A stretch of 64,000 nt of DNA from Hwanghaeella grinnelliae. Its GTDB lineage: Bacteria > Pseudomonadota > Alphaproteobacteria > UBA8366 > Aestuariispiraceae. Below the pieces are notes generated by a model. That model was not told the DNA's origin and ran no database searches. It saw only the letters and a list, made by a program, of their open reading frames with translations. The first letter of the stretch is position 1; every line of letters starts with the position of its first letter. The stretch covers positions 186,421 to 250,420 of the forward strand of contig NZ_SADE01000002.1 in NCBI RefSeq assembly GCF_004005845.1, in the 5' to 3' direction. Made by a program: the position numbers and the translations under genes. Below are positions 1-16,600 of this stretch, one piece after another.

Positions 1-163
1 TCCACGCAACCGCCTTATTCTGCACCCGCGAGGAGAAGATTGCGGATTCCAGGGGCTGGCACTATTGTGCGCCGCCGCTAGATACGGTGTTTTGAGGAAA
101 TAACCTCCGCCGGAGATGTACCGGGCACAGCAGCCCCATACAAGATTGGACAGTCGACCAGCG

Positions 164-1972
164 ATGACAGATATCGCCCGTATTCGTAACTTCGCAATTA
201 TCGCCCATATCGACCACGGGAAATCCACCCTGGCCGACCGGCTGATTCAGCTCTGCGGTGGTTTGACCAACCGCGAGATGAAGCAGCAGGTCCTCGATTC
301 GATGGATATCGAGCGTGAGCGCGGCATCACCATCAAAGCCCAGACCGTGCGCCTGAAATACACGGCCAAGGACGGGTTGGAATACACGATCAACCTGATC
401 GACACCCCCGGCCATGTGGATTTTTCCTATGAGGTTTCGCGCAGCCTGGCGGCCTGTGAAGGGTCGCTGCTGGTGGTCGATGCCAGCCAGGGCGTGGAAG
501 CGCAGACCTTGGCCAACGTCTACCTGGCGATCGAAAACAATCATGAGATCATTCCGGTCCTGAACAAGATCGATCTTCCGGCGGCAGAGCCCGAGCGTGT
601 GAAAACGCAGATCGAGGATGTGATCGGCATTGATGCCAGCGACGCGCTGGAAATCTCCGCCAAGACGGGTATGGGGATGGAAGCGGTCCTGGAGGCTATC
701 GTCACCAAACTGCCGCCGCCAAAAACGTCCGAAGAGCCTGACCCGAAGGTCCGCGCCCTGTTGGTCGACAGTTGGTACGACGCCTATCTAGGCGTTGTCG
801 CCCTGGTGCGCGTCCGTGACGGGGTGATTAAGAAGGGCCAAAAGCTGCGCATGATATCGACCGGGGCCGTTCACGAAGTGGACCGCGTCGGCGTTCTGAC
901 GCCAAAGGGTCTTGTCGTCGATCAGTTGAACCCAGGCGAAGTCGGCTTCATCACCGCAAACATCAAAGCCGTCGCGGACTGCAAGGTCGGGGATACGCTG
1001 ACCGAAGACCGGCGCCCAACCGACGAACCGCTACCCGGCTTCCAACCCTCGGTCCCGGTTGTGTTCTGTGGCCTGTTCCCGGTCGACAGTTCGGAATTCG
1101 AAACCCTGCGCGAAGCTTTGGGCAGACTGGCGCTGAACGATTCCAGCTTCCATTTCGAAATGGAGACTTCCGCGGCACTCGGTTTCGGTTTCCGATGCGG
1201 GTTTCTTGGCTTGTTGCATCTGGAGATCATCCAAGAGCGTTTGAGCCGCGAATTCGACCTGGACCTTATCTCGACCGCACCGTCCGTCGTCTACAGGATC
1301 CAACTGAACAACGGCAACACGATAGAACTGCACAATCCGGCGGACTATCCAGACCCGACTCACATCGAGAGTATCGAGGAGCCCTGGATCAAGGCGACCA
1401 TCATGGTGCCGGACGAGTTCCTTGGCCCGGTTCTAACGCTGTGTACGGAACGGCGCGGCGAACAAATCGAACTGACCTATGTCGGCTCACGGGCGATGGC
1501 GGTTTACCGCCTGCCGCTGAACGAAGTGGTGTTCGATTTCTACGACCGCTTAAAATCGATCAGCCGCGGCTATGCCTCCTTCGATTACGAGATCGACAGC
1601 TATAAGGAAGGCGATCTGGTCAAGGTATCGATCCTGATCAACGGCGACCCGGTCGATGCGCTTGCCATGATCGTTCACCGCTCCCAGGCGGATTTCCGCG
1701 GCCGCGCCATCTGCGGCCGGCTGAAGGATTTGATTCCCCGTCAGCTGTTCAAGGTCGCGCTTCAAGCTGCGATCGGCGGCAAGGTCATCGCCCGCGAGAC
1801 CATCGGCGCCTTGCGCAAGGACGTCACGGCCAAGTGCTATGGCGGGGACGTTTCCCGCAAACGGAAACTGCTTGAAAAGCAGAAGGAAGGGAAAAAGCGC
1901 ATGCGTCAGTTCGGCAAGGTCGACATCCCGCAATCCGCTTTCCTGGAAGCGCTGAAGATGGGTGACAATTGA
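164..1972 (+). CDS. lepA: Elongation factor 4 (LepA), ribosome back-translocase GTPase
   Basis: Translational GTPase of 602 residues, the usual LepA length, acting on the ribosome in the cytoplasm. The G-domain motifs are all visible: P-loop AHIDHGKST (residues 14-22), [18 protein letters not shown] and SAK. The EF4-specific C-terminal part is complete, with the Lys/Arg-rich tail around [19 protein letters not shown]. The reading frame is open from 116, but alignment with the family begins at [10 protein letters not shown], so I place the start at the ATG at 164. The gene stands alone on the plus strand and converges on the small membrane-protein gene after it. I see no defect in it. Confidence 0.97.
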
Positions 1973-2028
1973 CGGCCTGAGGATGAATCGCTGGTCGCCA
2001 AGCCGATCTTTCCGGCAGGCGACCGGCG

Positions 2029-2367
2029 CTATTCGCTTCGGAACGTGTGGCGCCGTTTCGGCCGGCGGCCGATCACGGACAGTAATCCACCCATCAACAT
2101 CAGGCCGATGAACAGCCACAGAATGCTTTCCCAAGCGGCCCTTTGCAGCAGATAGGGAACAATTGCGTTATCCCAGAACGCGGGCAGATGCAGATGCCGC
2201 TGTATGACCACCTGCGCCAGGTTCAAACTGCTTACGTCCAGCGAATACCATAATGCCCCGGCCGCTTTCGTGATGTCTTCGCCGGCTAACCAAAGCCAAA
2301 TGCCCAGCCCCAGAAAAACAAAGGCCAGGAGGAAGAACAGCCACTGGAAAAACCTCAATACTATCAT
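2029..2367 (-). CDS. Small inner-membrane protein, unknown function
   Basis: A 112-residue protein with two clear hydrophobic stretches: residues about 4-28 (rich in Phe, Leu and Trp) and about 80-100 (ending in LLSVIGRRP). The basic C-terminal tail RRPKRRHTF suggests a cytoplasmic end. The loop between the two segments would lie in the periplasm. I recognise no catalytic motif and cannot name a family with confidence. The gene converges on lepA, leaving 56 bases between the stops. A long, GC-rich open frame with a strong membrane profile supports a real gene, but no function can be assigned. Confidence 0.7.
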   Translation of the reverse strand: MIVLRFFQWLFFLLAFVFLGLGIWLWLAGEDITKAAGALWYSLDVSSLNLAQVVIQRHLHLPAFWDNAIVPYLLQRAAWESILWLFIGLMLMGGLLSVIGRRPKRRHTFRSE

Positions 2368-2707
2368 GTGGAATCCCGTACCCGCTTACTAACGCTCCCA
2401 CGAACAACGAGGCCGATGCCTTTCGGACATCCGCCTCGACCCTGCCCCCCCACGGCGGGTCTTTGCCTCCTTAAGGAAGCATCATTTCCAAAATAGTATC
2501 ATGGGGTTGGCAAAGATCAAAATTCTGGGCTGGACCGCCGTGAGCCTTCGCCTTCCGACAGCTGGAAACCGCCAAAATTGTCTTTCTTCCTTCTCCTCTC
2601 CAGGGAAAGGCCGAAACAATGCGCGGAAGGCTTGATCACCCCGTCGCTGTCGGTTAGGTTCCGCCGCCGTCGCGCGAGGCTTCGCCCTCGAAGCGCGTCT
2701 ACACCGG
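2368..2707. other. Intergenic stretch before tRNA-Ser
   Basis: About 340 bases lie between the start of the small membrane-protein gene and tRNA-Ser. Open frames across it are compositional or are antisense to the tRNA. The promoter of the minus-strand membrane-protein gene and that of the tRNA should both lie here, but I could not pick convincing -35/-10 boxes. A C-run near 2445-2451 is the only low-complexity stretch. I see no other element. Confidence 0.4.
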
Positions 2708-2797
2708 GGAGAGATGGCCGAGTGGTTTAAGGCGCACGCCTGGAAAGCGTGTTGGGGCGGAAGCCCCTCAGGGGTTCGAATCCCCTTCTCTCCGCCA
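2708..2797 (+). tRNA. tRNA-Ser (anticodon GGA)
   Basis: A class II tRNA of 90 nt including an encoded CCA. The acceptor stem pairs GGAGAGA (2708-2714) with the TCTCTCC-type 3' strand ending before discriminator G2794 and CCA 2795-2797. The anticodon stem CACGC/GCGTG (2735-2739, 2747-2751) encloses loop CTGGAAA, so the anticodon is GGA at 2742-2744, reading UCC and UCU. A long variable arm (TTGGGGCGGAAGCCCC) and a T arm GGGGTTCGAATCCCC complete the serine type. The reading frames crossing it are spurious. Confidence 0.97.
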
Positions 2798-2983
2798 CTA
2801 TTTCCAAGACATCGATGCAGCACCTTTCGGGGTCGCCATTTGCCTTCCGCACCAAGCGGTGGGCCGCAGCCGCTTTTGCACGCGCCTTCTCCGTCCGCTT
2901 CCCGGCCGAAAGCCGCATGAGCCGCCTGCTTACCCCTCGCATTCATCTAATTTAGCATCACCTGTTAACTTTATGGTAAGTCC

Positions 2984-4285
2984 ATGGGATTAGTGTTCCG
3001 AGACTGGGAACGCTCGGTCCCATTTCCACATGTGTCGTCAAAGGAACTCGTTAGAGCAATGCAAGCGGGTAGCGCTACGGTCGAAGCAACAGAGTCCCTA
3101 CCCTGGCAGGTCATGATCGTGGATGACGACAAGTCCGTTCACCAATCAACCCGGTTTGCCTTGGACGATTTCGAATTCGAGAACCGTGGGCTCGAACTGA
3201 CGAGCGCGTATTCCATCAAGGAAGCTCAGGAACTGCTCCGCAAACATCGGAACACGGCCGTCATCCTTTTGGATGTCGTCATGGAATCCGAAACGGCGGG
3301 GCTGGACTATGTACGTTGGGTGCGCAAAGAGCTTGCCAATAGCCGCGTCCGGATCGTTCTACGCACCGGACAGCCCGGTTATGCGCCGGAACTGGATGTC
3401 GTTCGGAATTTCGACATCAACGACTACCGTGAAAAGAGTCAGATGACGGTCAATAAGCTGACCGCCACATTGTATACGGCCCTTCGGTCCTTCCGGGACA
3501 TCATCCAGCTCGAAGACCAGTCCGAAAGGTTGCAGGGCGCGCTCGCCATGGCGGAAAAGGCCAATCAGGCGAAGACGAACTTCCTGGCGCATGTCAGCCA
3601 CGAGTTCAGAACCCCTCTGAACGGTATCATCGGCCTGTCCGAGATGATCGCCTTGGAGGCACTGGGGCCCATCGGAACGAGGAAGTACAGCGAATACGCC
3701 TGGGATATCGTCACTTCCGGACGGCACCTTCAGGAGATGGTTGAGCGTTTGCTCCGTTTCTCCGAAAGCGGCGGCAGCCGGCCGATTGTCCAAGAAGCAT
3801 TCGACCTGCGGGAATTGATTTCCAACCTGTCGGGCATCGGAAATACCGAATCGCTAACCACGCCGGTTAACGAGCCGGGCGCAGATGAGGGCGAGGGCGA
3901 CCAGCGCCCAGGCATGATGCTGCGTGCCGACAAGGAAGCCGTCCAGAGCATGGTTTCCAACCTGATTTCCAACGCAGTGCAGCACAATCCATCCGGATGT
4001 AGGGTCCGTGTGACCGCACGCCCAACCGATGACGGAGGCTTGGTTCTGACCGTAATCGACGATGGTATCGGGATCAGTGAAAGTCTTCTTGAGCAATTGG
4101 ACGGCTCACTTGCTGTACCCGACGACCCCTATGTCGCGGGGCGCGGCGGCTTGGGCCTAGGCCTGGTCATGACAAAATCCCTGATCGAAGCACATGGTGG
4201 CAGTTTGAAAATAGAATCATCCAACGGGAACGGGACCCGCGCCCAACTGATCTTTCCGCCGGGCAGCCTTACAAAAGTAAACTGA
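2984..4285 (+). CDS. Receiver-histidine kinase hybrid
   Basis: A soluble 433-residue protein with an N-terminal receiver domain followed by a histidine kinase core, the reverse of the common hybrid order. Receiver: acidic pocket VDDD (46-49), phospho-acceptor D97 in LLDVVM, and K151 in YREKSQ; this receiver resembles those usually found next to DUF3369. Kinase: H206 in HVSHEFRTPLNG, N box NLISNAVQHN (326-335), G1 VIDDGIGI and G2 GRGGLGLGL. There is no membrane segment, so its input is probably phosphate or a partner protein. An alternative ATG at 3059 (MQAGSATVEA) has AAAGGA upstream and would remove 25 unconserved residues. It is followed after 26 bases by a binding-protein gene and then a sensor kinase, as one operon. 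Partner identity is inferred. Confidence 0.88.
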   Translation: MGLVFRDWERSVPFPHVSSKELVRAMQAGSATVEATESLPWQVMIVDDDKSVHQSTRFALDDFEFENRGLELTSAYSIKEAQELLRKHRNTAVILLDVVMESETAGLDYVRWVRKELANSRVRIVLRTGQPGYAPELDVVRNFDINDYREKSQMTVNKLTATLYTALRSFRDIIQLEDQSERLQGALAMAEKANQAKTNFLAHVSHEFRTPLNGIIGLSEMIALEALGPIGTRKYSEYAWDIVTSGRHLQEMVERLLRFSESGGSRPIVQEAFDLRELISNLSGIGNTESLTTPVNEPGADEGEGDQRPGMMLRADKEAVQSMVSNLISNAVQHNPSGCRVRVTARPTDDGGLVLTVIDDGIGISESLLEQLDGSLAVPDDPYVAGRGGLGLGLVMTKSLIEAHGGSLKIESSNGNGTRAQLIFPPGSLTKVN

Positions 4286-4311
4286 CACACCAAACAAACC
4301 GGTGATTGAAA

Positions 4312-5430
4312 ATGATAAGACCCTCCTTGGATAGATTTGCCGTGCGTTCGTTTGCGCTCGCGGCCCTTGCCGTTTTGGCGGCCTGTGGGGATCCCGAGCC
4401 GATCAAGGTAGGAATCATCGTCGGCTTGACGGGACGGTCCGCCGATCTTGGCGAAGCGTCGCGCAATGCCGTGCAACTCGCTGCGGACGAAGTGAATCAG
4501 TCGGGCGGGATAAATGGCCGCCCGATCTCCCTCATCGCGCTTGACGACGAAGGCAAGCCGGAGGCCGCCGCGGCCGCGGTTCGGCGCGCCCATGAAGAGG
4601 GAGTCGTGGCGATTATCGGACCGAACCTCAGTTCAACCACGACCGGCATGCTGCCGGAAATCAACCGACTGGAAGTCATCACGATTTCGCCCACGGCTTC
4701 ATCTCTCGACTTCGTGGACATCGACGACTTCCTGTTCCGGATAAACTGGTCAACCCGGGAGAACGCGACGATATATGCGAAGCATTACCACAACATGGGT
4801 ATAAGGAATGTCGCCGCGGCCATCGACGCTAACAACCGCGCCTTTTCGGAAAGCTGGCTGAACGAATTCAAATCCGCATTCGAAGCACTGGGTGACGTTA
4901 CCGTCGTTTCCGACCTGTTCGACGCAAATTCGGACCAAGGCTATTCGAGCACGGCGCGTAAGCTTCTTGAGTCTCAACCCGATGCCGTTCTTTTGATCGC
5001 CAACAGTGTCGATACAGCCCAAATCACGCAGCAAATCCGAAAGTTGGACAAGCAGACTTTGATCGTCGCCGCGGAATGGGCCGCTTCCGAGCGGTTGCTG
5101 CAACTGGGTGGAAAGGCGATCGAAGGCATCGAAATGGTCCAATCCTATGATCGCAACAATCAGTCGGAACGGTACCTGGATTTCAAGAGCGCCTACTTCG
5201 AACGGTTCAAGCGCCTGCCCGGATATGCCAGCGTTGCGTCCTACGATGCCGCACTCATGCTATTCGCTGCTCTTCGGAAGGACGACGACCCGAAGACATT
5301 GAAGAAAAACCTGATTGGATTGCCTGTTATCGATGGTCTTCAGCAACCGCTCAAATTCAACAAATACGGTGACGCGGAACGGCGTGCCTTCTTCGTGACC
5401 GTACAGGATGGAAGCTTCGTCCAGCAATGA
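4312..5430 (+). CDS. Lipoprotein of the branched-chain amino-acid-binding (type 1 periplasmic) fold
   Basis: A 372-residue periplasmic ligand-binding protein of the LivJ/UrtA type, with the typical opening IKVGIIVGLTG followed by AVQLAADEVN and a substrate pocket near IGPNLSSTT. The N-terminus ends in lipobox LAAC (Cys25), so it should be a lipoprotein. The start is the ATG at 4312, with GGTGA six bases upstream; an in-frame TTG two codons earlier is less likely. No permease or ATPase genes flank it. It overlaps the downstream sensor kinase start (ATGA), which points to translational coupling and to a role as the ligand sensor for that kinase rather than in uptake. Compare TorT/TorS and LuxP/LuxQ, known pairs of binding protein and kinase. 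The ligand is unknown. Confidence 0.87.
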   Translation: MIRPSLDRFAVRSFALAALAVLAACGDPEPIKVGIIVGLTGRSADLGEASRNAVQLAADEVNQSGGINGRPISLIALDDEGKPEAAAAAVRRAHEEGVVAIIGPNLSSTTTGMLPEINRLEVITISPTASSLDFVDIDDFLFRINWSTRENATIYAKHYHNMGIRNVAAAIDANNRAFSESWLNEFKSAFEALGDVTVVSDLFDANSDQGYSSTARKLLESQPDAVLLIANSVDTAQITQQIRKLDKQTLIVAAEWAASERLLQLGGKAIEGIEMVQSYDRNNQSERYLDFKSAYFERFKRLPGYASVASYDAALMLFAALRKDDDPKTLKKNLIGLPVIDGLQQPLKFNKYGDAERRAFFVTVQDGSFVQQ

Positions 5431-7391
5431 GCCTAGTCAGGGAATTGCGGTTGAGAACGTCCGTCGTTCTTCTGCAATTCAGCACGATCATCATCACCTT
5501 GGCCGTGGTTGGTACGGCCTTGCTTACTTATGTCATCACTGAATTTTCCCGGGATAATTTGCTATACGCAACACGCGCCAGCGAAACCATGGCCAAGCGC
5601 GTGGAAGATTTCCTTGAGAGCTTGACGTTAGACGTACTCCTGATCGGCAAACACTATGAGACGCACCCCACTGCCGATATCAGCACGTTCCTTGAAGCGG
5701 CGCGAAGGAAGCGGTTCAGCGCCATTTTTATCGTCGGATCGGACGACATCCTGAAAGTGGCCAGCTTGTCCAGCGGCAACAAGGCCCGCGAAGCGGAATT
5801 GGGTGGCGTCGATCTTTCTTCCTATCCCCTTCTATCGGACGCCCGCGCGGCATCCCGGCCGACCTGGAGCGGTAAGCATATTTCCGCCATTACCGGTGAT
5901 GTGACAGTCGGCCTTGCGGTTCCCCTCACCAGTGGCGAAGCCGTTATCGTAGAGTTCCCGCTGAAAACCATTGTTGAGGTTGGCAATGTCTTTCGCGAGA
6001 AGGGCCATCTGGACTATTGGGTGATCGACAGCAAAGGCGAGGTCGTCGCCGATACGAGTGGCGTTCGGACCCAATTGATGAACCTGTCCAGTTTGGAGAT
6101 CGTTCAGGCCGGCTTTACAGGCGCCGAGCAACCGACACTCATGAATTTTCGCGGACAGAACTACACCGTATCGGCAACCTATTCCGAACAGCTCGGCTGG
6201 CTGTTCGTCGGCCGTGTTCCGGCTGGACTCGCAAACCCCGACTTGCGGGAAATTCTTTACACGGTTCTTGCTTTCGCATTGGGGACGGCGGTATTCGGGT
6301 TGTTGCTGGCCCCGATCTGGGCACGGCGGATTACCAAACCCGTGGGCACGCTGACGGAATTGGCAAGCCAGATTACGGCGGGTCAACGGCCGGTCCGTTG
6401 GCCGCGTGGGGCCATTCGTGAATTCAACACTTTGATCGACGACCTCAAAGCGATGTCCGACGCAATCTCGAAAAGAGAAGTGGAGTTGCGCGACCTCAAC
6501 GAAGGTCTTGAGTCCCGGGTCGAGGAGCGGACAAGAGAACTTATCCGCATCAACGATGACCTCAAGACAGCGATGGACGAGATCCAACAGGCAAGGGACG
6601 GACTAATCCAATCGGAGAAGACCGCGGCGCTTGGCCGGATGGTCGCGGGAATTTCCCATGAATTGAATACGCCGCTCGGGAACGGACGCATGGCTGTCAG
6701 CACCCTTGCGGCACGCCTGGAAACCTTCCGGGAGCGCGTCAACGACCCGGTCGACAAGAAGGACTTGGACAAGTTCCTGGAAACCGTCGGCATGAGTGTT
6801 GAAATTGCTGAGAACAATTTGGTCAGGGCCGGCAACCTGGTTCGCAGCTTCAAGGAAATCTCCGCCGACCGGACAGCGTCGCGCAGGCGCAAAGTGATTT
6901 TGAAAGAGCTGCTGGACGAAGTAACGCTGACATTGACACCGACTTTGAAACGAAGTCCGGTAACCTTGGAAGTCGATGTCCCCGGCACGATTTGGGTCGA
7001 CAGTTATCCCGGCGAGTTGGGACAGGTCATCACCAATCTGGTCGAGAACGCAATCGTCCATGCCTTCCACGGCAGGGAATCGGGCAGAATCGCGATCACG
7101 GCGGGCCATACATCGGAGGACTTCGTCACCATCGATCTTAGCGACGACGGTAACGGCATGACACCCGATGTCATCCGAAAGGCATTCGACCCGTTCTTTA
7201 CCACGGCACTCGGAAAAGGCGGAACCGGCCTGGGTCTTTACATCGTCCACCGCACTGTTGAAACGGTGCTTGGCGGAACGGTGACCCTGAAAAGCAAAGT
7301 CGGCAAAGGCACCGTATTCCAATTGAAAATACCGGTTCAGGCACCTGAAGCCGGCAATACCCCTTTTGGGGAAAATATGAAAGTGACTTAA
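5427..7391 (+). CDS. Membrane sensor histidine kinase with periplasmic domain, HAMP and coiled coil
   Basis: A 654-residue sensor kinase. TM1 lies at about 15-37, a periplasmic Cache-like domain at about 40-270, and TM2 at about 276-297 (ILYTVLAFALGTAVFGLLL). A HAMP domain follows (ITKPVGTLTELASQI), then a coiled coil (about 340-400). The kinase core has the phospho-acceptor H411 in GISHELNTPLGNG, N box NLVENAIVHAF, G1 DDGNGM and G2 GGTGLGLYIV. No receiver is attached; the receiver-kinase hybrid two genes upstream is the obvious phosphate acceptor. The gene starts inside the stop of the lipoprotein gene, so the two proteins are probably made together and interact in the periplasm. The motif order is of the type seen in four-helix CheA-independent kinases. 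The signal is not known. Confidence 0.9.
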   Translation: MSLVRELRLRTSVVLLQFSTIIITLAVVGTALLTYVITEFSRDNLLYATRASETMAKRVEDFLESLTLDVLLIGKHYETHPTADISTFLEAARRKRFSAIFIVGSDDILKVASLSSGNKAREAELGGVDLSSYPLLSDARAASRPTWSGKHISAITGDVTVGLAVPLTSGEAVIVEFPLKTIVEVGNVFREKGHLDYWVIDSKGEVVADTSGVRTQLMNLSSLEIVQAGFTGAEQPTLMNFRGQNYTVSATYSEQLGWLFVGRVPAGLANPDLREILYTVLAFALGTAVFGLLLAPIWARRITKPVGTLTELASQITAGQRPVRWPRGAIREFNTLIDDLKAMSDAISKREVELRDLNEGLESRVEERTRELIRINDDLKTAMDEIQQARDGLIQSEKTAALGRMVAGISHELNTPLGNGRMAVSTLAARLETFRERVNDPVDKKDLDKFLETVGMSVEIAENNLVRAGNLVRSFKEISADRTASRRRKVILKELLDEVTLTLTPTLKRSPVTLEVDVPGTIWVDSYPGELGQVITNLVENAIVHAFHGRESGRIAITAGHTSEDFVTIDLSDDGNGMTPDVIRKAFDPFFTTALGKGGTGLGLYIVHRTVETVLGGTVTLKSKVGKGTVFQLKIPVQAPEAGNTPFGENMKVT

Positions 7392-7398
7392 CCGCGGA

Positions 7399-8646
7399 TC
7401 AGCCGAGCGGCGCCCAAAAACACCGGACATGGTGAAAATAATCGAATTCGTCATCGACGCCGGAACGGCTGTAGATCATAAAATCCAGCCTTTGAAGAGC
7501 ACCGACCTGTTCCGCATCGGGTGGGTTCGCGGCAGTATCGAGGAAGAAACCGGTCGCCCGGCGCAGTGCGGCGGGGTCCTTCCGAAAGGCGGCAACCATC
7601 ATCGCCGCTTTCGCCAGGGCGTGCAGGGCAACACGCCGGACGGCACCCCAGCGCAGCGCCGGTCCCGCACGTAATGTTCCGAACAAGAACACGCCCGACA
7701 CCGCCAGACCGGCCAGCGCGATCACGCCCAGCACCGGACGCCCGTCACCGGCAGTCAAGGCCAGCGCATTCTTATTTTCCGCAAAACTCGCATACCCGAA
7801 TGGAGCGGCTTCCAGCTCCATCATCTCCATTTCCCTGGTTTCCGTATTGAGCCATGGGATCGTGTAATCGCGGATCACGCCGGGTTCCCCCGTGATCGGC
7901 CGCATTTCCCATGACCATGTCACTTTCGTAATCGGGCCCTTTTCGGTGAGGATCATTTCCCTTACCTCGGGCGGGGAAAAGGTTATCAGCCAATAGGCGC
8001 GCATCGGCGGTTGCGGCGGAATAAGTTCCGGCACGACGCCCAGGGCGGATAGCGTCACGGTGCGGACCACCGTGTCCCCATCCCCAAGGGTCGAGGGGTC
8101 GGCGCTCCACTCGTCGCTGTATTCAAGAAGCTTTGCCGAGAAAGGCCAGGCATCCGGTCCGCCGGGATAGGGCGCGATTGATAAGGTAATCGGCGCCGCT
8201 TCAATATTCATCTTGATGCGCCCGCCGGACCGCGGTTGCACGGTCAGTCGATGTACGAATGGACCAACTTTCAGGTCTCCGGCCTTTTTTGCAAACAGCG
8301 CGATCCGCCGGCGGAATACGCTCTTTTCCTTGCCGTCGACCTGCTCCCGGCTCCATTCGTCATTTTCGATTTGGACCCAATCGAATCCTTCGACGCGCGG
8401 TAGTTCCATTTTTTCCAGTGTAATGACGACATCGTACACACCGCGAATCGTCATCAGGATCATCTCACCGACAACGGGTTTCACGTCCGGATCGTCCAAT
8501 TCGATGAATAGTTCAGCCGTTCCTTCTTGCGTTTGCGCCTGGGCAGAGGCCGGCAGCAGCACACCGACGGCCAGAGTCAGGACGCAAAGGAATGACAGAA
8601 ACCGCGCAATGAGCATCGCGTTTCGGGTCACCATCCCTGCCCCCAT
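7399..8646 (-). CDS. batD: BatD-like protein, oxygen tolerance operon
   Basis: Last gene of the Bat operon. The 415-residue product has an N-terminal signal peptide ending near LLPASAQAQ, a large periplasmic beta-rich region typical of BatD (start TAELFIELDDPDVKPVVGEM), one transmembrane segment at about residues 308-328 (VLGVIALAGLAVSGVFLFG) and a cytoplasmic helical tail. Start choice is uncertain: ATG 8646, ATG 8634 (overlapping the previous stop as ATGGTGA) and ATG 8616 are in frame; 8634 fits translational coupling. BatD proteins are thought to act with the vWA proteins BatA and BatB in the envelope, with no defined chemistry. It converges on the sensor kinase gene with a 7-base gap. Confidence 0.8.
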   Translation of the reverse strand: MGAGMVTRNAMLIARFLSFLCVLTLAVGVLLPASAQAQTQEGTAELFIELDDPDVKPVVGEMILMTIRGVYDVVITLEKMELPRVEGFDWVQIENDEWSREQVDGKEKSVFRRRIALFAKKAGDLKVGPFVHRLTVQPRSGGRIKMNIEAAPITLSIAPYPGGPDAWPFSAKLLEYSDEWSADPSTLGDGDTVVRTVTLSALGVVPELIPPQPPMRAYWLITFSPPEVREMILTEKGPITKVTWSWEMRPITGEPGVIRDYTIPWLNTETREMEMMELEAAPFGYASFAENKNALALTAGDGRPVLGVIALAGLAVSGVFLFGTLRAGPALRWGAVRRVALHALAKAAMMVAAFRKDPAALRRATGFFLDTAANPPDAEQVGALQRLDFMIYSRSGVDDEFDYFHHVRCFWAPLG

Positions 8647-9254
8647 TCGCGAATGATCTGCCCAAGCCCCTTACGCCGATCGTATTCCGCTTCCAACCGC
8701 TTCTTCAGATATTCACCCGGTTCGTCTGATAAGGTCTCAAGCCATTCTTCGCTGGCAATGGTGCTGCGCGCTCGGGTCTTGCGGCGTACTTTGTATTGGT
8801 TGGCCAGGCCCGGCAGCACGGCATCTTCCGGATGTTGCTTGCGTCTAGCCGCCAGCGCGGCGATCCGCCCGGTCCCGCGCCCATCGCCGATGATGGGTAC
8901 CAGCAAGGCACCGACCGCATCGCGGTTCTCCTCCGCCTGCTTGTCCTCAGGCCGGGCGAAAAGAACCGCGTTGAAATAGGCGACCGAAAGCTTGTATTTG
9001 CCAGTGGCCGCCAAGGACAGCCCGCGGTTATAGGTCACCGATCGGCCTGCCTCCTCGAAGGCGGCGTCGGCCTCCGCATAGCGTCCCGCACGATACAGCG
9101 CGACGCCCTTGGCGCCCGGTTCCTCCAGCAGCTCGGCCGCCACCGAGGGCTGACCCAACAACAGGGCGATCTTGCCAAGGGAATGCGGGCCCGCAGCCCA
9201 CAGGCAGGCGGCACAAAGAGCGATCAGAAAAGGCAGGATCAAACGCCGCATCAT
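8628..9254 (-). CDS. Exported TPR-type protein of the Bat operon (BatC/BatE-like)
   Basis: A 208-residue protein with a signal sequence or membrane anchor (residues about 3-22, LILPFLIALCAACLWAAG) followed by two to three TPR-like helical repeats, for example GVALYRAGRYAEADAAFEEAG and YNRGLSLAATGKYKLSVAYFNAVL. Its position between the BatB-type and BatD genes matches the TPR gene seen in many Bat operons, where it is proposed to act as an assembly scaffold. The ATG overlaps the stop of the upstream vWA gene (ATGA), so translation is coupled. The C-terminal third is charged, ends in IIREWGQGW and has no recognised domain. Confidence 0.78.
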   Translation of the reverse strand: MMRRLILPFLIALCAACLWAAGPHSLGKIALLLGQPSVAAELLEEPGAKGVALYRAGRYAEADAAFEEAGRSVTYNRGLSLAATGKYKLSVAYFNAVLFARPEDKQAEENRDAVGALLVPIIGDGRGTGRIAALAARRKQHPEDAVLPGLANQYKVRRKTRARSTIASEEWLETLSDEPGEYLKKRLEAEYDRRKGLGQIIREWGQGW

Positions 9255-10204
9255 CGACCCCTTCGGAACAGAACAAGGGCCGGGATCATGGCGAGTATCA
9301 CCAGATACCGGCCCAAATCGTCGAACAGCAGCGGCGCCAGTTCGGACTTCGCCAGATATTCGGTGCGCGAGTCCTTCAACAGATCTGACAGGTCCGACAG
9401 TTCCTTCATACCGATGGCCAGTCCGCCACCGGCATCCGCCAATTGGTTTAGCGCCTTCTCGTCAGGCGGCGGCATCTCGGGATTGGCTTCGGCGATTTGT
9501 GCGTCAGGCGGAATGAAGATGGTCGATACACGGCCTCCCGCTTCGACAATGTCGAGAGTTTCCTGCAACGCCGCCGTGTTCATGCCGCCGCCATCCGTGA
9601 TCAGCACGATATCGCCGGATAGAATCCCTGCTTCCTGGAATAGGCCCCTGGCCATGCCGAGCGCACGTTCCGGCCGGCTGCCGACACTGGGCATCAGCTC
9701 AGCATCCAGGACCGCGATCGGTCCTTCCAGCGTAGCTGTATCGATGGTCATCGCGCTGACCAGGAAGGGGTCGCCGGTATAGAGGATAAGCCCCACCGGG
9801 CGCGCGCCGACCCGCTGCAGCAGATAGGCCGCCGCCGCTTGGGCGTCATCCAAACTGCCGCCCTTCGTGACCGATGGCGACATATCCATAAGCAGCATGA
9901 TGCCGTCGAGGTTTTGAAAGGACGGCGCATCGTCGTTCTGCCGTGCCGGCCCACTCAATGCGACGCAAAGCACAACGGCGGCCGCAAGCGGTGCCAGATG
10001 GCCCCAGCGCGATTGCGGATAGGCAACATGGCCTAGCTTAACCAAAACCGGCATCAGCGCCGTGTCGATCACCGCATTCCAACCGGCAAGACCACCGCGC
10101 TTGTGACGCAGCCAAAAGAAAAGAAGAATCAGGAACGGCAGGCCCACCAGCCAATAGGCACGGAGCAACCAGAAGTCCTGGAACAGTTCGTAGGTTCCGC
10201 TCAT
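9251..10204 (-). CDS. batB: vWA-domain membrane protein (BatB-like)
   Basis: A 317-residue protein with N-terminal transmembrane segments (WLVGLPFLILLFFWLRHK and a second near HLAPLAAAVVLCVALSG), a von Willebrand A domain with the metal-binding DxSxS motif in LLMDMSPSVTKGG, and a C-terminal transmembrane segment (YLVILAMIPALVLFRRG). This layout is typical of BatA/BatB. The start is the ATG at 10204, which overlaps the upstream stop by four bases; the longer frame to 10273 is just the tail of the previous gene read in another frame. It should sit in the inner membrane with the vWA domain facing the periplasm. I assign BatB rather than BatA from gene order only. Confidence 0.83.
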   Translation of the reverse strand: MSGTYELFQDFWLLRAYWLVGLPFLILLFFWLRHKRGGLAGWNAVIDTALMPVLVKLGHVAYPQSRWGHLAPLAAAVVLCVALSGPARQNDDAPSFQNLDGIMLLMDMSPSVTKGGSLDDAQAAAAYLLQRVGARPVGLILYTGDPFLVSAMTIDTATLEGPIAVLDAELMPSVGSRPERALGMARGLFQEAGILSGDIVLITDGGGMNTAALQETLDIVEAGGRVSTIFIPPDAQIAEANPEMPPPDEKALNQLADAGGGLAIGMKELSDLSDLLKDSRTEYLAKSELAPLLFDDLGRYLVILAMIPALVLFRRGR

Positions 10205-11157
10205 TCCGTTGTCCGATGCATGAAGGCGATGAAGACAGCCAGCAGAAGCGCCAAGGCTGCCGGCAGCATCCAATATTCGTGATGCACTTCCAGCGGCGGC
10301 TGCAGGGTCGGGCTTGGTTCCAATGCATCCAAGGCGTCCGCCACCGCGGTCAGATCGCTCATATTCTTGACGCGGAAACTTTGGCCGCCGCTTTCCTCGG
10401 CGACCTCACGCAGGGTTTTAGTATCGACCGCGTCCCGTGTTTTCGGCGCCGTCTCCAAATCGACGGGGCCAAGCGCAATGGTGTGGACGCGGATCCCATG
10501 TTCCTTGGCAAGTCCGGCCACGTCGATGGCCGAGACCGTGCCCTTGGTGTCGACCCCGTCGGACAACAGAATGACGACCCGGCTGGGCGCATCCGATTTC
10601 GACAACCGTTTCACCGCCAGACCCAACCCATCGCTGATCGCGGTCGAGCGACCGGATATACCGATGACCGCCTCTTGGATCGCGCGGGCGACCGCTACCG
10701 TGTCGAAGGTCAGCGGCGAGCCGAAATAAGCACGATCCCCGAAGATCACCAGACCGATCCGGTCGCCGACCCGGCGTCGGACGAAATGCGCGCCAACCTT
10801 CTGAACCGCTTGCAAGCGGGTGAGGTCCTGGCCGTCGAGATTGAAATCCTCCTTCTCCATACTGCCGGATAGATCGAGCGCCAGGACGATATCCCGGCCG
10901 GAAGACGGTATGGCGTCGCTGGTCCCCAGCATGCGCGGCCCGGCAAGCGCCACGACGAGCATGAGCCACAACAGCGAGGGCAGCGCCCGGCGTACATGTG
11001 TGGCGTAACCGATGCTGCCGATTTCCGCCATCGCGCCGGCAATGGCCGAGGGTACGAAGAACGCGCCGCTCTCTCGACGGCGCGGGGGCAACAGGAACCG
11101 CGCCAGGAAAGGCAGGGGCAGCAACATCAGGGCGAGAGGGTCGGCGAGGCTCCACAT
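10201..11157 (-). CDS. batA: vWA-domain membrane protein (BatA-like)
   Basis: A 318-residue protein with the BatA layout: an N-terminal hydrophobic hairpin (LADPLALMLLPLPFLARFLL, then ALPSLLWLMLVVALAGPRML), a vWA domain with intact MIDAS motif DLSGSM in VLALDLSGSMEKEDF plus the downstream T and D (GRSTAISDGLG, LLSDGVDT), and a C-terminal transmembrane segment (LPAALALLLAVFIAF). The start is ATG 11157, one base after the stop of the DUF4381 gene; 55 extra upstream codons in the same frame are not coding. The MIDAS suggests metal-dependent binding of partner proteins. It forms a tandem pair with the next vWA gene. Confidence 0.87.
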   Translation of the reverse strand: MWSLADPLALMLLPLPFLARFLLPPRRRESGAFFVPSAIAGAMAEIGSIGYATHVRRALPSLLWLMLVVALAGPRMLGTSDAIPSSGRDIVLALDLSGSMEKEDFNLDGQDLTRLQAVQKVGAHFVRRRVGDRIGLVIFGDRAYFGSPLTFDTVAVARAIQEAVIGISGRSTAISDGLGLAVKRLSKSDAPSRVVILLSDGVDTKGTVSAIDVAGLAKEHGIRVHTIALGPVDLETAPKTRDAVDTKTLREVAEESGGQSFRVKNMSDLTAVADALDALEPSPTLQPPLEVHHEYWMLPAALALLLAVFIAFMHRTTE

Positions 11158-11158
11158 G

Positions 11159-11548
11159 CTAGCCTCCCCGCTCTGCGGCCAAGCGCAGAATTTCCGCATC
11201 CAGGGCTTCAAGGTCGATATCTGCGTCCGGGCGATACAGATCCTGGCGCCAGGCGGGTTCGGTATCCTGTTCCTCGGCGGCCGACCGGCGCAATTCCGAC
11301 CAGAGCCGCACCTGCCGGACAAGCCTGTCAGACGCGGGCAATGCGCGGAACGAGTCGAGGTTTTGCGCGACCTGCTCGCGTTTGGTTAAACGGCGGGCCA
11401 GGAACGGCCGTAGCAGCAGATACAGAACGATGCCGAGCGCCAGACCAACGCCGAAGGCGGCGCAACCGTCCTGCCAGGTCAGGTCGGCGAATCCCGCGGG
11501 CAGGCGCGGCGGATGCAATTTGCTGACGATGTCAGACGGCGTCTGCAT
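11159..11548 (-). CDS. DUF4381-like membrane protein of the Bat operon
   Basis: A 129-residue protein starting MQTPSDIVSKLHPPRLP, with one transmembrane helix (about residues 26-50, CAAFGVGLALGIVLYLLLRPFLARRL) and a charged helical C-terminal part. Position between DUF58 and BatA genes, length and layout match DUF4381 members of gammaproteobacterial and alphaproteobacterial Bat operons. The start at 11548 lies inside the end of the DUF58 gene (17-base overlap); the 40 codons upstream in this frame belong to the overlap and look non-coding. Function unknown; probably an inner-membrane partner of the vWA proteins. The family call is from memory of layout, not from a search. Confidence 0.72.
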   Translation of the reverse strand: MQTPSDIVSKLHPPRLPAGFADLTWQDGCAAFGVGLALGIVLYLLLRPFLARRLTKREQVAQNLDSFRALPASDRLVRQVRLWSELRRSAAEEQDTEPAWRQDLYRPDADIDLEALDAEILRLAAERGG

Positions 11549-12428
11549 AAATCGCCCCCACCGTTTCTTCCAACACCGTATCGGCGTCGACGACCCTGAC
11601 CGTTGCCCCGGCATCGCGCAGGGCTTGGACACGCCTCTCCGCCGATGCCGCACCCTTTGTAAAGGCACCCCATTTCAGCGCACCATCTTCCGAAAAGTAC
11701 GGTAGATTTCTTTGCGGCGGATCCCGCTCGAATGCGTCCCTGATCAGGAAGATCTCTACACTCGCCAGCCGCAACAGGGGCCGAATAGCCTGTTCGACAA
11801 CATCGTCCCCATCGTCGAAGCCCGTCGTCAGAACCACGGTCGCCCCGCGCGGAACAAGTCGCGCGACACGGTCGATATGACTATCCAGGCCCGCACTTGG
11901 AACCCGGTCGCCGGACGCCAACCCTTCCAAAGCCTGACGATGCGCTTGGGCGAGCGACCCGGCGATGCGTACCATCGCCGTATCCCTTTCCCGCGGCGGC
12001 TGGAACATGGATTCACGATCGGAAAAAGCCAACAGCCCTACGCGTCCGCCGGCATATAAGCTGCGCCATCCGGCCAAGGCCGCCAATTCAGCTGCCAGAA
12101 CCGACCGTAGACGGTTTCTGGTTCCCCACAACATGGTGTGGCGGAAATCAACGACCAGCATGGCCGTGCGGTCCTGGTCTTCATGGAAGGTGCGCACATG
12201 CGGCTTACCGGTCCGGGCCGTGGCCATCGCATCCATATGCCGGATATCGTCGCCATCCGCATAGGGACGGATATCGCGGATATCCAATCCACTGCCGCGC
12301 TTTTTTCCGGCATGACTGCCCGGACGACCGGTCTCGGCGAGATGGGGCAAGGAGGATTGCGCCAACGCGCGGAGACGGATCAGCCGATCCGCATCGACCG
12401 ACGCGCCGGGATGGCCATGCCAGTCCAT
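11532..12428 (-). CDS. DUF58 protein of the Bat operon
   Basis: A 298-residue cytoplasmic protein with the DUF58 signature near residues 44-75 (GSGLDIRDIRPYADGDDIR followed by HMDAMATARTGKPHVRTF) and a vWA-like fold after it (RTAMLVVDFRHTMLWG). The last acidic residue of the usual vWA metal site is not obvious, as is common for DUF58. DUF58 genes nearly always follow moxR in this operon, 11 bases apart here, and are thought to be clients or adaptors of the MoxR ATPase. The 3' end overlaps the next gene. Biochemical role unknown. Confidence 0.87.
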   Translation of the reverse strand: MDWHGHPGASVDADRLIRLRALAQSSLPHLAETGRPGSHAGKKRGSGLDIRDIRPYADGDDIRHMDAMATARTGKPHVRTFHEDQDRTAMLVVDFRHTMLWGTRNRLRSVLAAELAALAGWRSLYAGGRVGLLAFSDRESMFQPPRERDTAMVRIAGSLAQAHRQALEGLASGDRVPSAGLDSHIDRVARLVPRGATVVLTTGFDDGDDVVEQAIRPLLRLASVEIFLIRDAFERDPPQRNLPYFSEDGALKWGAFTKGAASAERRVQALRDAGATVRVVDADTVLEETVGAIYADAV

Positions 12429-12439
12429 TGCCGTCGCTC

Positions 12440-13450
12440 CTAAAGCGGTTTCACATCATTGAGCAGCCGCGCAACGAGGCTGCGCGCCGTGTCGCCATTC
12501 GCCGTCGCGCGCCAGGTCGGAATGATCCGGTGCGCCAGAACGTCAGGCGCCAGGACCTGAACGTCTTCGGGCACGCCATAGTCGCGGCCATGTAAATAGG
12601 CGCGGGCGCGCACGGAAGCCGCCAGCGACAGCGTTCCGCGCGGTGAAACCGCGTGTTCGATTGCCTCGCTCACTTCGGGAACAGGCGAACCGTCGCGCGT
12701 CGCCATCACCAATCGGACGATGAAATCCTTCAACGCGGCGGAGAGGTGAACCGTCTCAACTTCTTTCCGGGCCGCCAGGATCGCATCCGAATTCGTCAAC
12801 GATGAGATCACCGCCGGCTGCGCCGCCTCACTCTCAACCAAATTCAGGATCGACATTTCCGTCACCGCATCCGGCAGGGTCAGCATCACATGCATCAGAA
12901 ACCTGTCGAGCTGCGCTTCGGGAAGGGGAAAGGTTCCTTCATGTTCAATGGAGTTCTGCGTCGCCACCACCATGAAACAGGGCGGCAGGGCCTGAGTAAC
13001 GCCACCGGCCGTGACCTGCCCTTCGGCCATCGCTTCCAGCAGGGCCGATTGAACCTTGGGCGGGGCGCGGTTGATTTCGTCCACCAGCACCAGCGCGTGG
13101 AAAATCGGACCCTTAACAAATTCGAAAACGCCCGTGTCGGGTCGAAAGACTTGGGTGCCGGTGACATCGGCCGGCATCAGATCGGGTGTGCATTGGATAC
13201 GCGCGAAACTACCCTCCAGGCCGGAGGCGAGCCGCTTAACCGCCCGCGTCTTTGCCAAGCCGGGCGGACCTTCGATCAGCAGATGACCGCCGGTCAACAA
13301 ACCGATCGCCAAACGCTCGACCATACCTTCATGACCGATCAGGCCGGCGCAGACATTCCCGACCAGATCATGTATCGGGCCCGCGGCATTCTGGTTGCTC
13401 GGCGGCGGCGCGGCGGAATCCGGCGCGCCGTTGGGTACGGAAGTATCCAA
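12440..13450 (-). CDS. MoxR-family AAA+ ATPase
   Basis: First gene of the seven-gene Bat operon, 336 residues. Walker A GPPGLAKT and Walker B VLVDEINRAPPKVQSALLEAMAEGQVT are intact, and the sensor region is VVATQNSIEHEGTFPLPEAQLDRF, which defines the MoxR branch. MoxR ATPases act as chaperones that mature or activate vWA-domain partners; two such partners are encoded downstream. The first 24 residues are low complexity (Pro, Ala, Asn) and could be trimmed, but the family core starts at HDLVGNVCAGLIGHE. The promoter should lie in the 245-base gap between this gene and the hydantoinase gene. Confidence 0.92.
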   Translation of the reverse strand: MDTSVPNGAPDSAAPPPSNQNAAGPIHDLVGNVCAGLIGHEGMVERLAIGLLTGGHLLIEGPPGLAKTRAVKRLASGLEGSFARIQCTPDLMPADVTGTQVFRPDTGVFEFVKGPIFHALVLVDEINRAPPKVQSALLEAMAEGQVTAGGVTQALPPCFMVVATQNSIEHEGTFPLPEAQLDRFLMHVMLTLPDAVTEMSILNLVESEAAQPAVISSLTNSDAILAARKEVETVHLSAALKDFIVRLVMATRDGSPVPEVSEAIEHAVSPRGTLSLAASVRARAYLHGRDYGVPEDVQVLAPDVLAHRIIPTWRATANGDTARSLVARLLNDVKPL

Positions 13451-13561
13451 CGTATTTCCTTCCCTGTTCCCGCCAATCTTCTTTTTCTATCTACGATGCG
13501 GCGGGGGTTTTAACCCAATCGGGACCGATCAGGCTGAATGCATACAATCTACCTTTCAGAC

Positions 13562-13586
13562 ATCGCCGGTTAGAGAAACCGGCGAT
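13562..13586. terminator. Perfect 10-bp hairpin downstream of the hydantoinase gene
   Basis: ATCGCCGGTT (13562-13571) and AACCGGCGAT (13577-13586) form a perfect 10-bp stem with a 5-nt loop. It lies between the hydantoinase stop and the moxR start, both on the minus strand. No U-run follows on either strand, so it is either a Rho-assisted or processing hairpin at the 3' end of the hydantoinase transcript or an operator upstream of moxR. The call is tentative. Confidence 0.4.
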
Positions 13587-13695
13587 TCAAGCAAGAGTAA
13601 TATCTTAACGGTGAACAGGAACACCGGCCAACACCGACTTTCGGACGAGAAGGCCAACGGAGCAAAGCCCCGTCGGCCGACCCGGTTTTGCTCAC

Positions 13696-16600
13696 TCACT
13701 CAGCCGCCGCGGCCGGACGCTGCGGGGTCAAGTCGAACCGATCGTCTGTCGCCCGTGCACCGGGATCGCGTTCCTCCGGCGGGCCGTACCCGCCACCGCC
13801 CGGCGTCAACATGATCAGGGCATCGCCCGCGGGCACGATCTGTTTCCCCATGCCGCGCAAGCGCTCGCCCGACCGCAGGGAGAGCTGCCCCGATGAGCCG
13901 ATCTCACCACCAGCCCGCCCGCGCGGCGGATTCTGGATCCGATCGAACAAGGCGAAAATGGCGAAAGGCGCGCTTTCCGCATGCTCGATCTCCATCGCCT
14001 GGCCCAGCCCGCCGCGGTACTTCCCTTCCCCGCCCGATCCGGCGCGGTATTCCTTGCGACGGAATATCACGGGGGCGATGGTTTCGGTGATTTCCACCGG
14101 GGTGCAGCGCACGCCCGATGGGAAAGCGGTAGCCGACAATCCGTCGCGGCCCGGGCGCGCGCCGGTGCCGCCCGAATGGAAGATCATCGCGGTGAAGGGC
14201 GTAGCGTCGCCATAATCCGCATCGCCGACGATGCCGTGCCCGCCGGACAACATCGGGTTCCACAACGAGGATGAACCTTCCGCCGGCGCGCAGCCCGGTT
14301 TCGCCTTATCCAGACACCCTAACACCACATCCGGCAGCATTTGACCCGTCACATGGCGGATATTCACCGCCGCCGGGCGCGGCGCGTTGAGGATACAGCC
14401 TTCCGGCGCGGTAACATGGATCGTTCCCAACGACCCTGCATTGTTCGGAACTTTCGGTCCGACAACGCAGCGCACCCCGAAGGAGGCATAGGCCTGGGTA
14501 TAGGTGAGCGGCACGTTGATGCCATAGGCGGACATCGCCGACGTGCCGTCGAAATCGACCTTCAGCCCATCCGCCTCGGTGGACAGTTTCGCCGTCAGGG
14601 TCAGCGGATGATCATAACCGTCGACGGTCATGCTGTTTTCATACACGCCTGACGGCAATTCCCGGATCGCGTCCAACATCGCCGCACGGGACGTATCGAT
14701 CACGTGGTCCGCGATTTCGGTGAGGTCGTCGAGGTCGAAATCCGCCATCATCTCATCAAGCCGGCGGCACCCGATCTCGTTACAGGTGGCAAGTGAATAA
14801 AGGTCGCCGACCACCTGGACCGGTTCGCGCACATTGGCGCGGACGATATCCATCAAGGGTTCGCTGACCGTCCCCTTGTCGAAGAACTTCATGATCGGGA
14901 TGCACAGGCCTTCTTCGAAGACCTGCCCGGCATCCGGCCCAAAGCCCCGGCCGCCGATATCGACGACATGGACCGTGGACGCGAAGAGCGCCACCGCCTT
15001 GCCCTTGCGGAAAGCCGGGGTCACGACCGTGAAGTCGAAAAGATGACCGGTACCCATCCAGGGGTCATTGGTCAAATAGACGTCCCCTTCGGCCATTGTC
15101 TCAATCGGGTATTTTTCGAGGAAGAAGTCGACGGAAGCGGCCATGGCGTTCACATGGCCCGGCGTGCCGGTAACGGCCTGGGCCAGCATGCGGCCATCCG
15201 TGTCGAAAATACCGGCCGACAGGTCCCCGGCCTCGCGGACGGAGGTGGAAAAGGCGGTGCGGATCAGGGCCTGGGCCTGTTCCTCCACGACAGAGATCAT
15301 CCGGTCCCAAACGACCTGACGGCGGATATCCTCGGCCAAATCACTGGCGGCCGCCCCTGCATCCGCGTCCCGGGTCAGGACAATATCGCCCATCGGGTTT
15401 ATTACGGCTGAAAAGCCGGATGGAACAATCGTCGTCGTCTGCTCTTCCACCAAGGCGGCCGGACCGGACAATTCGGCCCCGGCGGACAAATCCACGCGCC
15501 GATACAAACCCGCTTCCGCAGGCTTGTCCCCTCGTCCCGGCTGAAGCAGATCACGTACACCGTACGCGTCACCGGTTGAAACCTCCGCCGATTCGCTATT
15601 TGCAGAAAGAGACAACTGCGTTTCAGAGGGGGCGGAAAGGGTTAGGGTCCAGGTCAAAATCTCAACCTCCAGGCCTGGAACCACGCGCCCGTATTGTTCG
15701 CTGTACGCCTTTTCGAAAGCAGCATGCAACGCATCCGCATCAGATGCCTCAAACGGCCGATCCGGCAGGGAAACCTTGATTTCGTGTCCTTGCCCCACAT
15801 ACCGCATGAAAGCGTGCCGCTGCGTCACCAAATCGGCATCGGGTGCGCCGAGACGTACGACGACCTCAGCTTCCGCGTACATTTCGTCCATCAGTTCGTT
15901 TGCGCCAGACAGATCGAAGTCGGAAAGGCGCATATAGCGGCTGCGCACCACTTCGTACGCGACCGGGGCCAGCAGGAATCCGAAAGCGGAGCCCACCCCC
16001 GCATTGCCCGGAATGACGACCTTGTCGATGCCAAGTTTCTCCGCCACACGGGCGGCATGCAATGGGGCCGCACCGCCAAAGGCGATCATCGTGCGGTCCG
16101 CGATTTCCTTGCCGCGCTCAACCGCATGCACCCTGGCGGCCGAAGCCATATTCTCATCCACGATTTCGATCAGCCCCAATGCGGCGCCGGACGCGTCCAT
16201 GGACAAAGCGTCGCCCAAATCCCGCTTCATGGCGCCTTTGGCCGCCTCGACATCCAACTGCATGCTGCCGCCGGCAAAATCCTTCGGATCGATCCGGCCC
16301 AGCAGCAGGTTTGCGTCTGTGACCGTCGGTTTGTTTCCATCCCGGCCATAGCAGGCAGGGCCGGGATCCGCCCCCGCGCTTTCCGGACCGACCTGAATCC
16401 GGCCCAGGGCATCGACGGAGGCGATGGATCCGCCGCCAGCGCCGATTTCCACCATTTCGACCACGGGAATTTTCACCGGCAAACCGCTGCCCTTCATGAA
16501 ACGGTGGGTTCGGTCGACCTCGAAACTGCGGGACAACAATGGCTCCCCATCGTCGATCAGGCAGATCTTCGCGGTGGTGCCGCCCATATCGAAGGACAGA

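Follow-up and report, generated by a model that had tools for sequence, protein, structure and literature searches.

A probable two-component system of Hwanghaeella grinnelliae that relies on a binding protein and has exchanged its output

Three adjacent genes on the forward strand of a 64,000-nucleotide stretch of the Hwanghaeella grinnelliae genome (contig NZ_SADE01000002.1, positions 186,421 to 250,420; hereafter the window) probably encode a conserved, binding-protein-dependent two-component system whose output has been exchanged. Located at positions 2984-7391 of the window, they specify a receiver-first kinase (REC-kinase; the hybrid), a LivJ-fold periplasmic binding lipoprotein (PBP) and a membrane-bound sensor histidine kinase (HK). 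As shown by comparison with related loci, the trio is conserved, the PBP is coupled to the sensor domain of HK, the receiver of the hybrid is paired with the HK kinase core, and the output behind this receiver is exchanged. The architecture is well supported by this comparison; the contact between PBP and HK, the ligand and the flow of phosphate remain predicted.

The hybrid gene (2984-4285) encodes 433 residues, with the Pfam domains Response_reg (43-131), HisKA (196-261) and HATPase (316-426). Its receiver carries the acceptor D97 and the motifs VDDD, LRTGQPG and DYREKS, and its kinase carries H206 within SHEFRTP. An N-terminal receiver with an acceptor aspartate precedes a kinase with a phospho-acceptor histidine, as in REC-kinases of the CheS3/ExsG type. 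The PBP gene (4306-5430; 374 residues) follows after a gap of 20 bases and begins with TTG, an ATG being found two codons further in, at 4312. Peripla_BP_6 covers nearly its full length (residues 32-369, E 3e-56, 191.8 bits against a cut-off of 31.7), and the lipid cysteine of its LAAC lipobox, C27, is kept in 38 of 39 PBP orthologues, the exception (L064) being split over frames. The HK gene (5427-7391; 654 residues) overlaps the PBP gene in an ATGA stop/start (5427-5430). Its kinase core contains the box AGISHELNTP (H411), and the pattern HE[LM]NTP recurs in 17 of the 18 kinases examined, HK included; the Pfam HisKA match of HK is weak (26.8 bits against a cut-off of 26.9) and its HATPase match is clear. 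A preliminary description of the locus, made from the DNA letters alone, had placed the three reading frames, their overlap, the lipobox of a LivJ-type lipoprotein and the residues D97, H206 and H411 exactly as found here.

To place the trio among its relatives, 36 PBP loci gathered by one contig scan with a single peptide pattern, a sample that is not exhaustive, were assigned to types by tblastn and Pfam. An HK-type kinase lies directly 3' of the PBP in 18 of them. Six loci combine a kinase-output hybrid, a PBP and an HK-type kinase; the order hybrid-PBP-HK is visible with its receiver in four other contigs (L052, L053, L062 and L051, the last with hybrid and kinase broken across frames), and contig ends place the receiver out of view in L054 and L055. 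Seven loci carry a REC-DUF3369-GGDEF-EAL regulator with the PBP and the HK-type kinase: Thalassospira mesophila (L063), Dechloromonas (L065, L066), Accumulibacter (L069), Azonexus (L081), a contig labelled Verrucomicrobia (L083) and Rhodocyclaceae (L084). Five have PBP and kinase with no adjoining receiver gene (Nisaea L057, L059 and L060; L064; L056), and in 18 the PBP stands alone (17 Thalassospira or Thalassospira-like loci and L058). Because the hybrid-PBP-HK order recurs in other contigs, the trio is not a chance assembly. The PBP is rare: it was found in 5 of 385 genomes of the class (E 1e-40), 3 of 43 of the order (E 1e-70) and 5 of 398 of a phylum sample (E 1e-70), the source genome being counted each time. 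One class genome (G168) has PBP and HK, cut by a contig end, and no match to the hybrid. The record titles of L058 (Mesoflavibacter) and L083 clash with where their PBPs fall, among alphaproteobacterial and Accumulibacter-type sequences, and these contigs are probably mislabelled or misbinned.

Four transporter queries (LivH, two BPD_transp_2 permeases and one ABC ATPase, other transporter classes not being searched systematically) gave no match within positions 1-14000 of the window and, at the 36 orthologue loci, none in the 1.5 kb on either side of the PBP reading frame, with four loci (L052, L054, L055 and L060) spanning less than 1.5 kb upstream. For comparison, 19 of 27 other LivJ-like loci had a permease or ATPase match in the available stretch of up to 1.5 kb per side. 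The gene set of a classical importer, LivJ with LivHMGF neighbours, was likewise not found at the PBP loci within 1.5 kb. When the distance is widened to 6 kb, permease or ATPase matches appear at five of the 36 loci (L057, L059, L060, L051 and L069), 14 of the 36 being shorter than 6 kb on one or both sides. An ABC operon is located 3 to 7 kb downstream at three Nisaea loci; in L048, the one tested, this operon carries its own Bmp binding protein. The preliminary description had remarked on the missing transporter and had held that permease or ATPase genes beside the lipoprotein in relatives would count against its reading; none were found at close range, and these neighbourhoods support the PBP as a dedicated, transporter-less binding protein for HK. 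An ordinary transporter protein served by a permease encoded elsewhere, caught between unrelated kinases while the Cache domain of HK senses directly, would also account for the LivJ fold with its amino-acid-type pocket, for the distant Nisaea operons and for the 18 PBP orthologues with no kinase alongside, and Cache domains are described as typically binding small ligands (PMC8694187). Against this explanation stand the empty 1.5-kb neighbourhoods, the conservation of gene order in alphaproteobacterial as well as Dechloromonas, Azonexus and Accumulibacter contigs, and the behavior of the sensor domain set out below, which together make it quite improbable.

The periplasmic part of HK models as a double Cache domain. 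An AlphaFold model of HK residues 1-358 (pLDDT 84.6) aligns across roughly residues 32-277 with crystal structures of double Cache domains at Z scores of 16-19, for example Tlp3 (6w3s; Z 19.1, rmsd 2.9 over 230); the highest structural match (Z 21.0, rmsd 7.3) is to an integrative chemoreceptor model. By sequence the family resemblance is faint, the Pfam dCache_1 match of HK (E 1e-5, 25.5 bits) falling below the cut-off of 45 and those of its homologues ranging from 20.4 (L065) through 40.5 (L062) to 46.3 bits (L056). A sequence profile of the Cache part searched against solved structures gave KinD as its best match (E 0.0005), with 5ERE not listed, and LuxQ is not among the 50 structural matches listed for the HK periplasmic model. 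5ERE (Dret_0059 of Desulfohalobium retbaense) is matched by both partners: its residues 351-593 resemble the HK double Cache model (Z 18.6), and its residues 4-315 are found by the PBP sequence profile (E 4.5e-12). A PBP fold and a double Cache domain therefore occur together in one natural chain, although they are fused there and no sequence relation between the Cache parts was detected.

Three lines of comparison tie the PBP to this sensor. First, a profile of the sensor domain (E 1e-25) matched 4 of the 385 class genomes, the source genome included, and a PBP adjoins it in all four; among the five PBP genomes only G307 lacks the sensor, and its locus resembles Thalassospira L078. Second, across 14 loci, PBP distances follow those of the periplasmic domain (r 0.85; partial r 0.75 with the core controlled for, a value reached in 0 of 5000 permutations) more closely than those of the kinase core (r 0.68; partial r 0.36, reached in 22 of 5000 permutations). 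Third, in L056 (4173-6881) the PBP is linked to a Cache kinase with a HisKA-HATPase-REC-Hpt core; relative to L064, identity is 62% for the PBP and 66% for the sensor but 22% for the core, and no adjoining receiver gene of the usual kind lies in the 3 kb upstream span. As judged from these alignments, the PBP tracks the HK sensor more than the kinase core, and L056 is a case in which the core was exchanged naturally while PBP and sensor were retained. An ordinary transporter protein would not be expected to show either the sensor occurring only beside the PBP or the two being kept together where the core differs. The proposal that the lipoprotein is the sensing partner of HK, made in the preliminary description, gains accordingly from the missing transporters, the restricted occurrence of the sensor and the co-variation.

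What the PBP binds may be amino-acid-like. Its AlphaFold model (pLDDT 92.4) matches LivK/LivJ structures, the best solved match being 3td9 (Z 45.4, rmsd 1.8 over 337 residues), and the pocket positions S109, T130, S132, N233 and E257 are kept in 37-38 of 39 PBPs (S109 in 38, S132 in 37, E257 in 38 and N233 in 37). In a tentative mapping by hand, S109, S132 and E257 would correspond to LivJ S79, T102 and E226; the kept residues would fit an amino-acid-like ligand. Residues +2 and +3 after the lipid cysteine are often acidic in the PBP family and are G-D in the window PBP, which, under the E. coli rule on the residues that follow this cysteine, weakly suggests anchoring at the inner membrane.

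Hints of a pyrimidine stand against an amino-acid-like ligand. In Nisaea L048 (5105-15561), one run comprises PBP and HK, a Bmp-type ABC transporter, a cytosine deaminase that scores 761 bits (cut-off 438) and another PBP, which suggests a pyrimidine-responsive version of the receptor, and a published table lists 5ERE as a cytosine-binding dCache protein (PMC8694187). The L048 run, the fusion of both folds in 5ERE, and the invariance of D129, W147 and S153 among 15 aligned sensors all speak for co-sensing, in which PBP and Cache each sense a compound or the Cache domain receives its ligand from the PBP. The Nisaea sensor alone, however, has no meaningful sequence match among solved structures, 5ERE included, and co-sensing is possible but somewhat unlikely.

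The receiver of the hybrid points to HK as its probable phosphodonor. A search of seven genomes (E 1e-5) returned ten receivers of this type, the window's included, and six of them (the window, L095, L099, L114, L115 and L116) adjoin a kinase similar to the HK core. The boxes of the neighboring kinases at five of the nine other loci read HEINTP in four cases and HEMRTP in one; no such kinase lies beside the receivers at L111, L112 (near a contig end), L113 and L117. According to Pfam, run on the seven receiver proteins other than L112, L113 and L117, the outputs are HisKA-HATPase, DUF3369-HD, DUF3369-EAL with or without GGDEF, and DUF3369 alone. On the strength of these neighborhoods, the receiver belongs with the kinase core. 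One HEINTP kinase related to HK, of 1246 residues (L098, 1608-5345), has a phosphonate-type binding protein fused before its PAS domains.

The nature of the exchange emerges from the seven relatives with a REC-DUF3369-GGDEF-EAL protein at the same gene position, to which the hybrid is 38-47% identical over the receiver and some residues beyond. Pfam confirmed the DUF3369-GGDEF-EAL output in all seven loci. The GGDEF motif is degenerate in each (e.g., AGDAFA), and EALxRW and DDFGTG are intact in six, L083 having EALMRW but DPFGTD. Because GGDEF is degenerate and EAL intact, the output in these relatives is likely a c-di-GMP phosphodiesterase. In a tree of 39 PBPs and three outgroups, kinase-output loci form one group (91/94) and GGDEF-EAL loci two; with a root made unsure by an outgroup branch of 3.4 changes per column, an older GGDEF-EAL form and a later kinase output are favored, not proven. 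In a kinase tree of 36 rows, whose bootstrap was not fully settled, the kinase parts of five REC-kinases (the hybrid and four others) group together as one clade (99/98), which is nested in a wide assemblage of genome paralogues whose order is poorly resolved. One member, L099 (5217-7997), has a PAS kinase followed by a REC-HisKA-HATPase hybrid and no binding protein. Because the five, including this one, form a single clade, the REC-kinase appears in this sample to have arisen once and not to be tied to PBP systems.

We infer that the hybrid is the response regulator of HK, with a second kinase replacing DUF3369-GGDEF-EAL. The preliminary description had HK phosphorylate D97 and the hybrid relay the signal through H206, with a response regulator encoded elsewhere. 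Transfer from HK to D97 agrees with the receiver type found beside the same core type, and the HK regulator need not be sought elsewhere, since the hybrid, with a receiver matching those of REC-DUF3369-GGDEF-EAL proteins, fills that role; a regulator located elsewhere is now proposed for the hybrid itself. A relay from D97 to H206 is not favored, given how the receivers of CheS3 and ExsG regulate their kinases. CheA3 phosphorylates a CheS3 receiver and thereby changes CheS3 output to CheY3 (PMC3868531), and phosphorylation of the ExsG receiver favors an inactive state (PMC3899027). By analogy with these two, D97 probably regulates autophosphorylation of the hybrid's kinase, and phosphate need not move from D97 to H206. 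Instead, the hybrid might drain phosphate as a sink, or pass it on as a true relay from H206 to D97 or from D97 to a phosphotransferase; a sink role has been proposed for the tethered receiver of CheA3, which belongs to the CheS3 pathway (PMC3868531). The hybrid's receiver, however, precedes its kinase, in the CheS3/ExsG arrangement and unlike a C-terminal sink receiver, and is of a type that drives c-di-GMP-type outputs elsewhere, so that a sink or relay is unlikely.

Downstream of the hybrid the trail is faint. Its best NCBIfam models, those of the DivK-directed kinases PdhS (121.8 bits) and DivJ (119.7 bits), fall far below their equivalog cut-offs of 2000 and 1000, its HisKA segment resembles many genome paralogues, and no partner regulator could be named from the 36-row kinase tree. 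DivK or PleD as its downstream regulator is a guess. Elsewhere in the source genome (L095, 3613-8715), a PleD gene scoring above its model cut-off has a single-domain receiver, presumably DivK, just upstream, and this region converges on a PAS kinase and REC-DUF3369-HD pair of the same receiver and core type as the window's. As a link to the output of the hybrid, the position of this PleD region beside a sister kinase pair is only suggestive.

Several observations weigh against this assignment of parts. The sensor profile was built from PBP-linked kinases, and at most five candidates per genome were scored, which favors PBP-linked ones. When L056 is excluded, the correlations become 0.89 for PBP and sensor and 0.74 for PBP and core; the sensor-specific excess is moderate and rests on few, related sequences, and genes of one operon co-vary in part through common descent. 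Viewed from the kinase, only two of seven loci picked by similarity to HK adjoin a receiver of this type, and the HEINTP kinases L094, L097 and L098 have no receiver of the hybrid's type next door. Finally, the half of the PBP orthologues that stand alone have an intact pocket, so that the PBP can have a use without an HK-type kinase.

The lone PBPs are concentrated at one site. All 17 Thalassospira-type lone-PBP loci (L061, L067, L068, L070-L080, L082, L085 and L086) share an upstream gene that by eye is of the CDP-alcohol type, and 16 share a downstream gene of 115 residues. T. mesophila L063 has the same site, with regulator and kinase genes flanking the PBP; either these two neighbors have disappeared and left the PBP behind or they are additions. 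Of the 19 lone PBP copies, all keep the five pocket positions except one, the second Nisaea PBP, which has E257G. Among genomes with the PBP alone, no partner kinase was found in G011 with whole HK at E 1e-20, and the sensor profile at E 1e-5 had no match in G011, G743 or G746; G307 gave two partial matches (E 2e-7 and 3e-7). The lone PBP must have another use.

Known systems provide partial models. In LuxP/LuxQ of Vibrio, a periplasmic binding protein likewise signals via a membrane kinase with a double PDC/Cache periplasmic part. LuxP is a ribose-type binding protein without a lipid anchor, and LuxQ ends in its own receiver, whereas in the window the binding protein is a LivJ-type lipoprotein and the receiver belongs to a protein of its own. 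TorT/TorS of E. coli also pairs a binding protein with a sensor kinase, from which the window sensor differs in being a predicted double Cache. NspS/MbaA of Vibrio cholerae shares a signaling binding protein, there directed towards c-di-GMP, although NspS reportedly acts directly on the c-di-GMP enzyme, without kinase and receiver. CheS3 (Rhodospirillum centenum) and ExsG are, like the hybrid, receiver-first soluble kinases, but they are HWE-type, while the hybrid joins a HisKA kinase to the type of receiver seen in DUF3369 proteins. That receiver type is shared with REC-DUF3369-GGDEF-EAL and REC-DUF3369-HD regulators, several of which also have the same kind of kinase core next door; the hybrid has HisKA-HATPase in place of their DUF3369 and c-di-GMP domains. 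The periplasmic part of LuxQ is described as a double PDC (Cache-like) domain and that of TorS as all-helical (PMC8534201). Because the HK periplasmic domain models as a double Cache, LuxP/LuxQ is the closer functional model of the two pairs that the preliminary description had named. About ten kinases are described in one source as activated by a binding protein (PMC9602780). A narrow search of open-licence papers found no published description of the trio.

The best explanation of the whole locus, which we consider likely, is a three-gene phosphorelay running from the PBP through the Cache kinase HK to a receiver with an exchangeable output. The PBP, perhaps anchored at the inner membrane, would bind a small ligand in the periplasm, dock on the double Cache domain of HK and set its kinase activity, as LuxP does on LuxQ. 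HK would autophosphorylate at H411 and phosphorylate D97 of the neighboring receiver. This receiver would feed a response regulator with an exchangeable output, DUF3369-GGDEF-EAL in relatives and a second histidine kinase here. Phosphorylated D97 would then activate or inhibit autophosphorylation at H206, and this kinase would pass phosphate to a response regulator from another locus, perhaps one like DivK or PleD. A bolder version is doubtful: here the PBP would be an obligate sensing subunit, the c-di-GMP phosphodiesterase would have been swapped for a DivJ/PdhS-like kinase so that a nutrient signal now enters a DivK/PleD cell-cycle-type network, and the Nisaea receptor would respond to a pyrimidine, governing how this compound is taken up and deaminated.

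Around the trio, a tRNA-Ser gene lies upstream, and the next long open reading frame downstream (7399-8646) is on the opposite strand. The reverse strand at 7399-13450 encodes, by eye, VWA-domain and MoxR-type ATPase proteins in an aerotolerance-operon-like arrangement.

The natural exchange of parts among these loci shows what belongs together: PBP and Cache sensor form one unit, receiver and kinase core another, and the output can vary. The lone Thalassospira PBP at the same site raises the question of what role a receptor subunit has without its kinase. Of the PBP clan, only SBP_bac_3 is described in one source as studied in c-di-GMP networks (PMC8846402). If the present reading is true, a LivJ-type protein would join the binding proteins through which kinases sense, and in relatives it would be connected to c-di-GMP.

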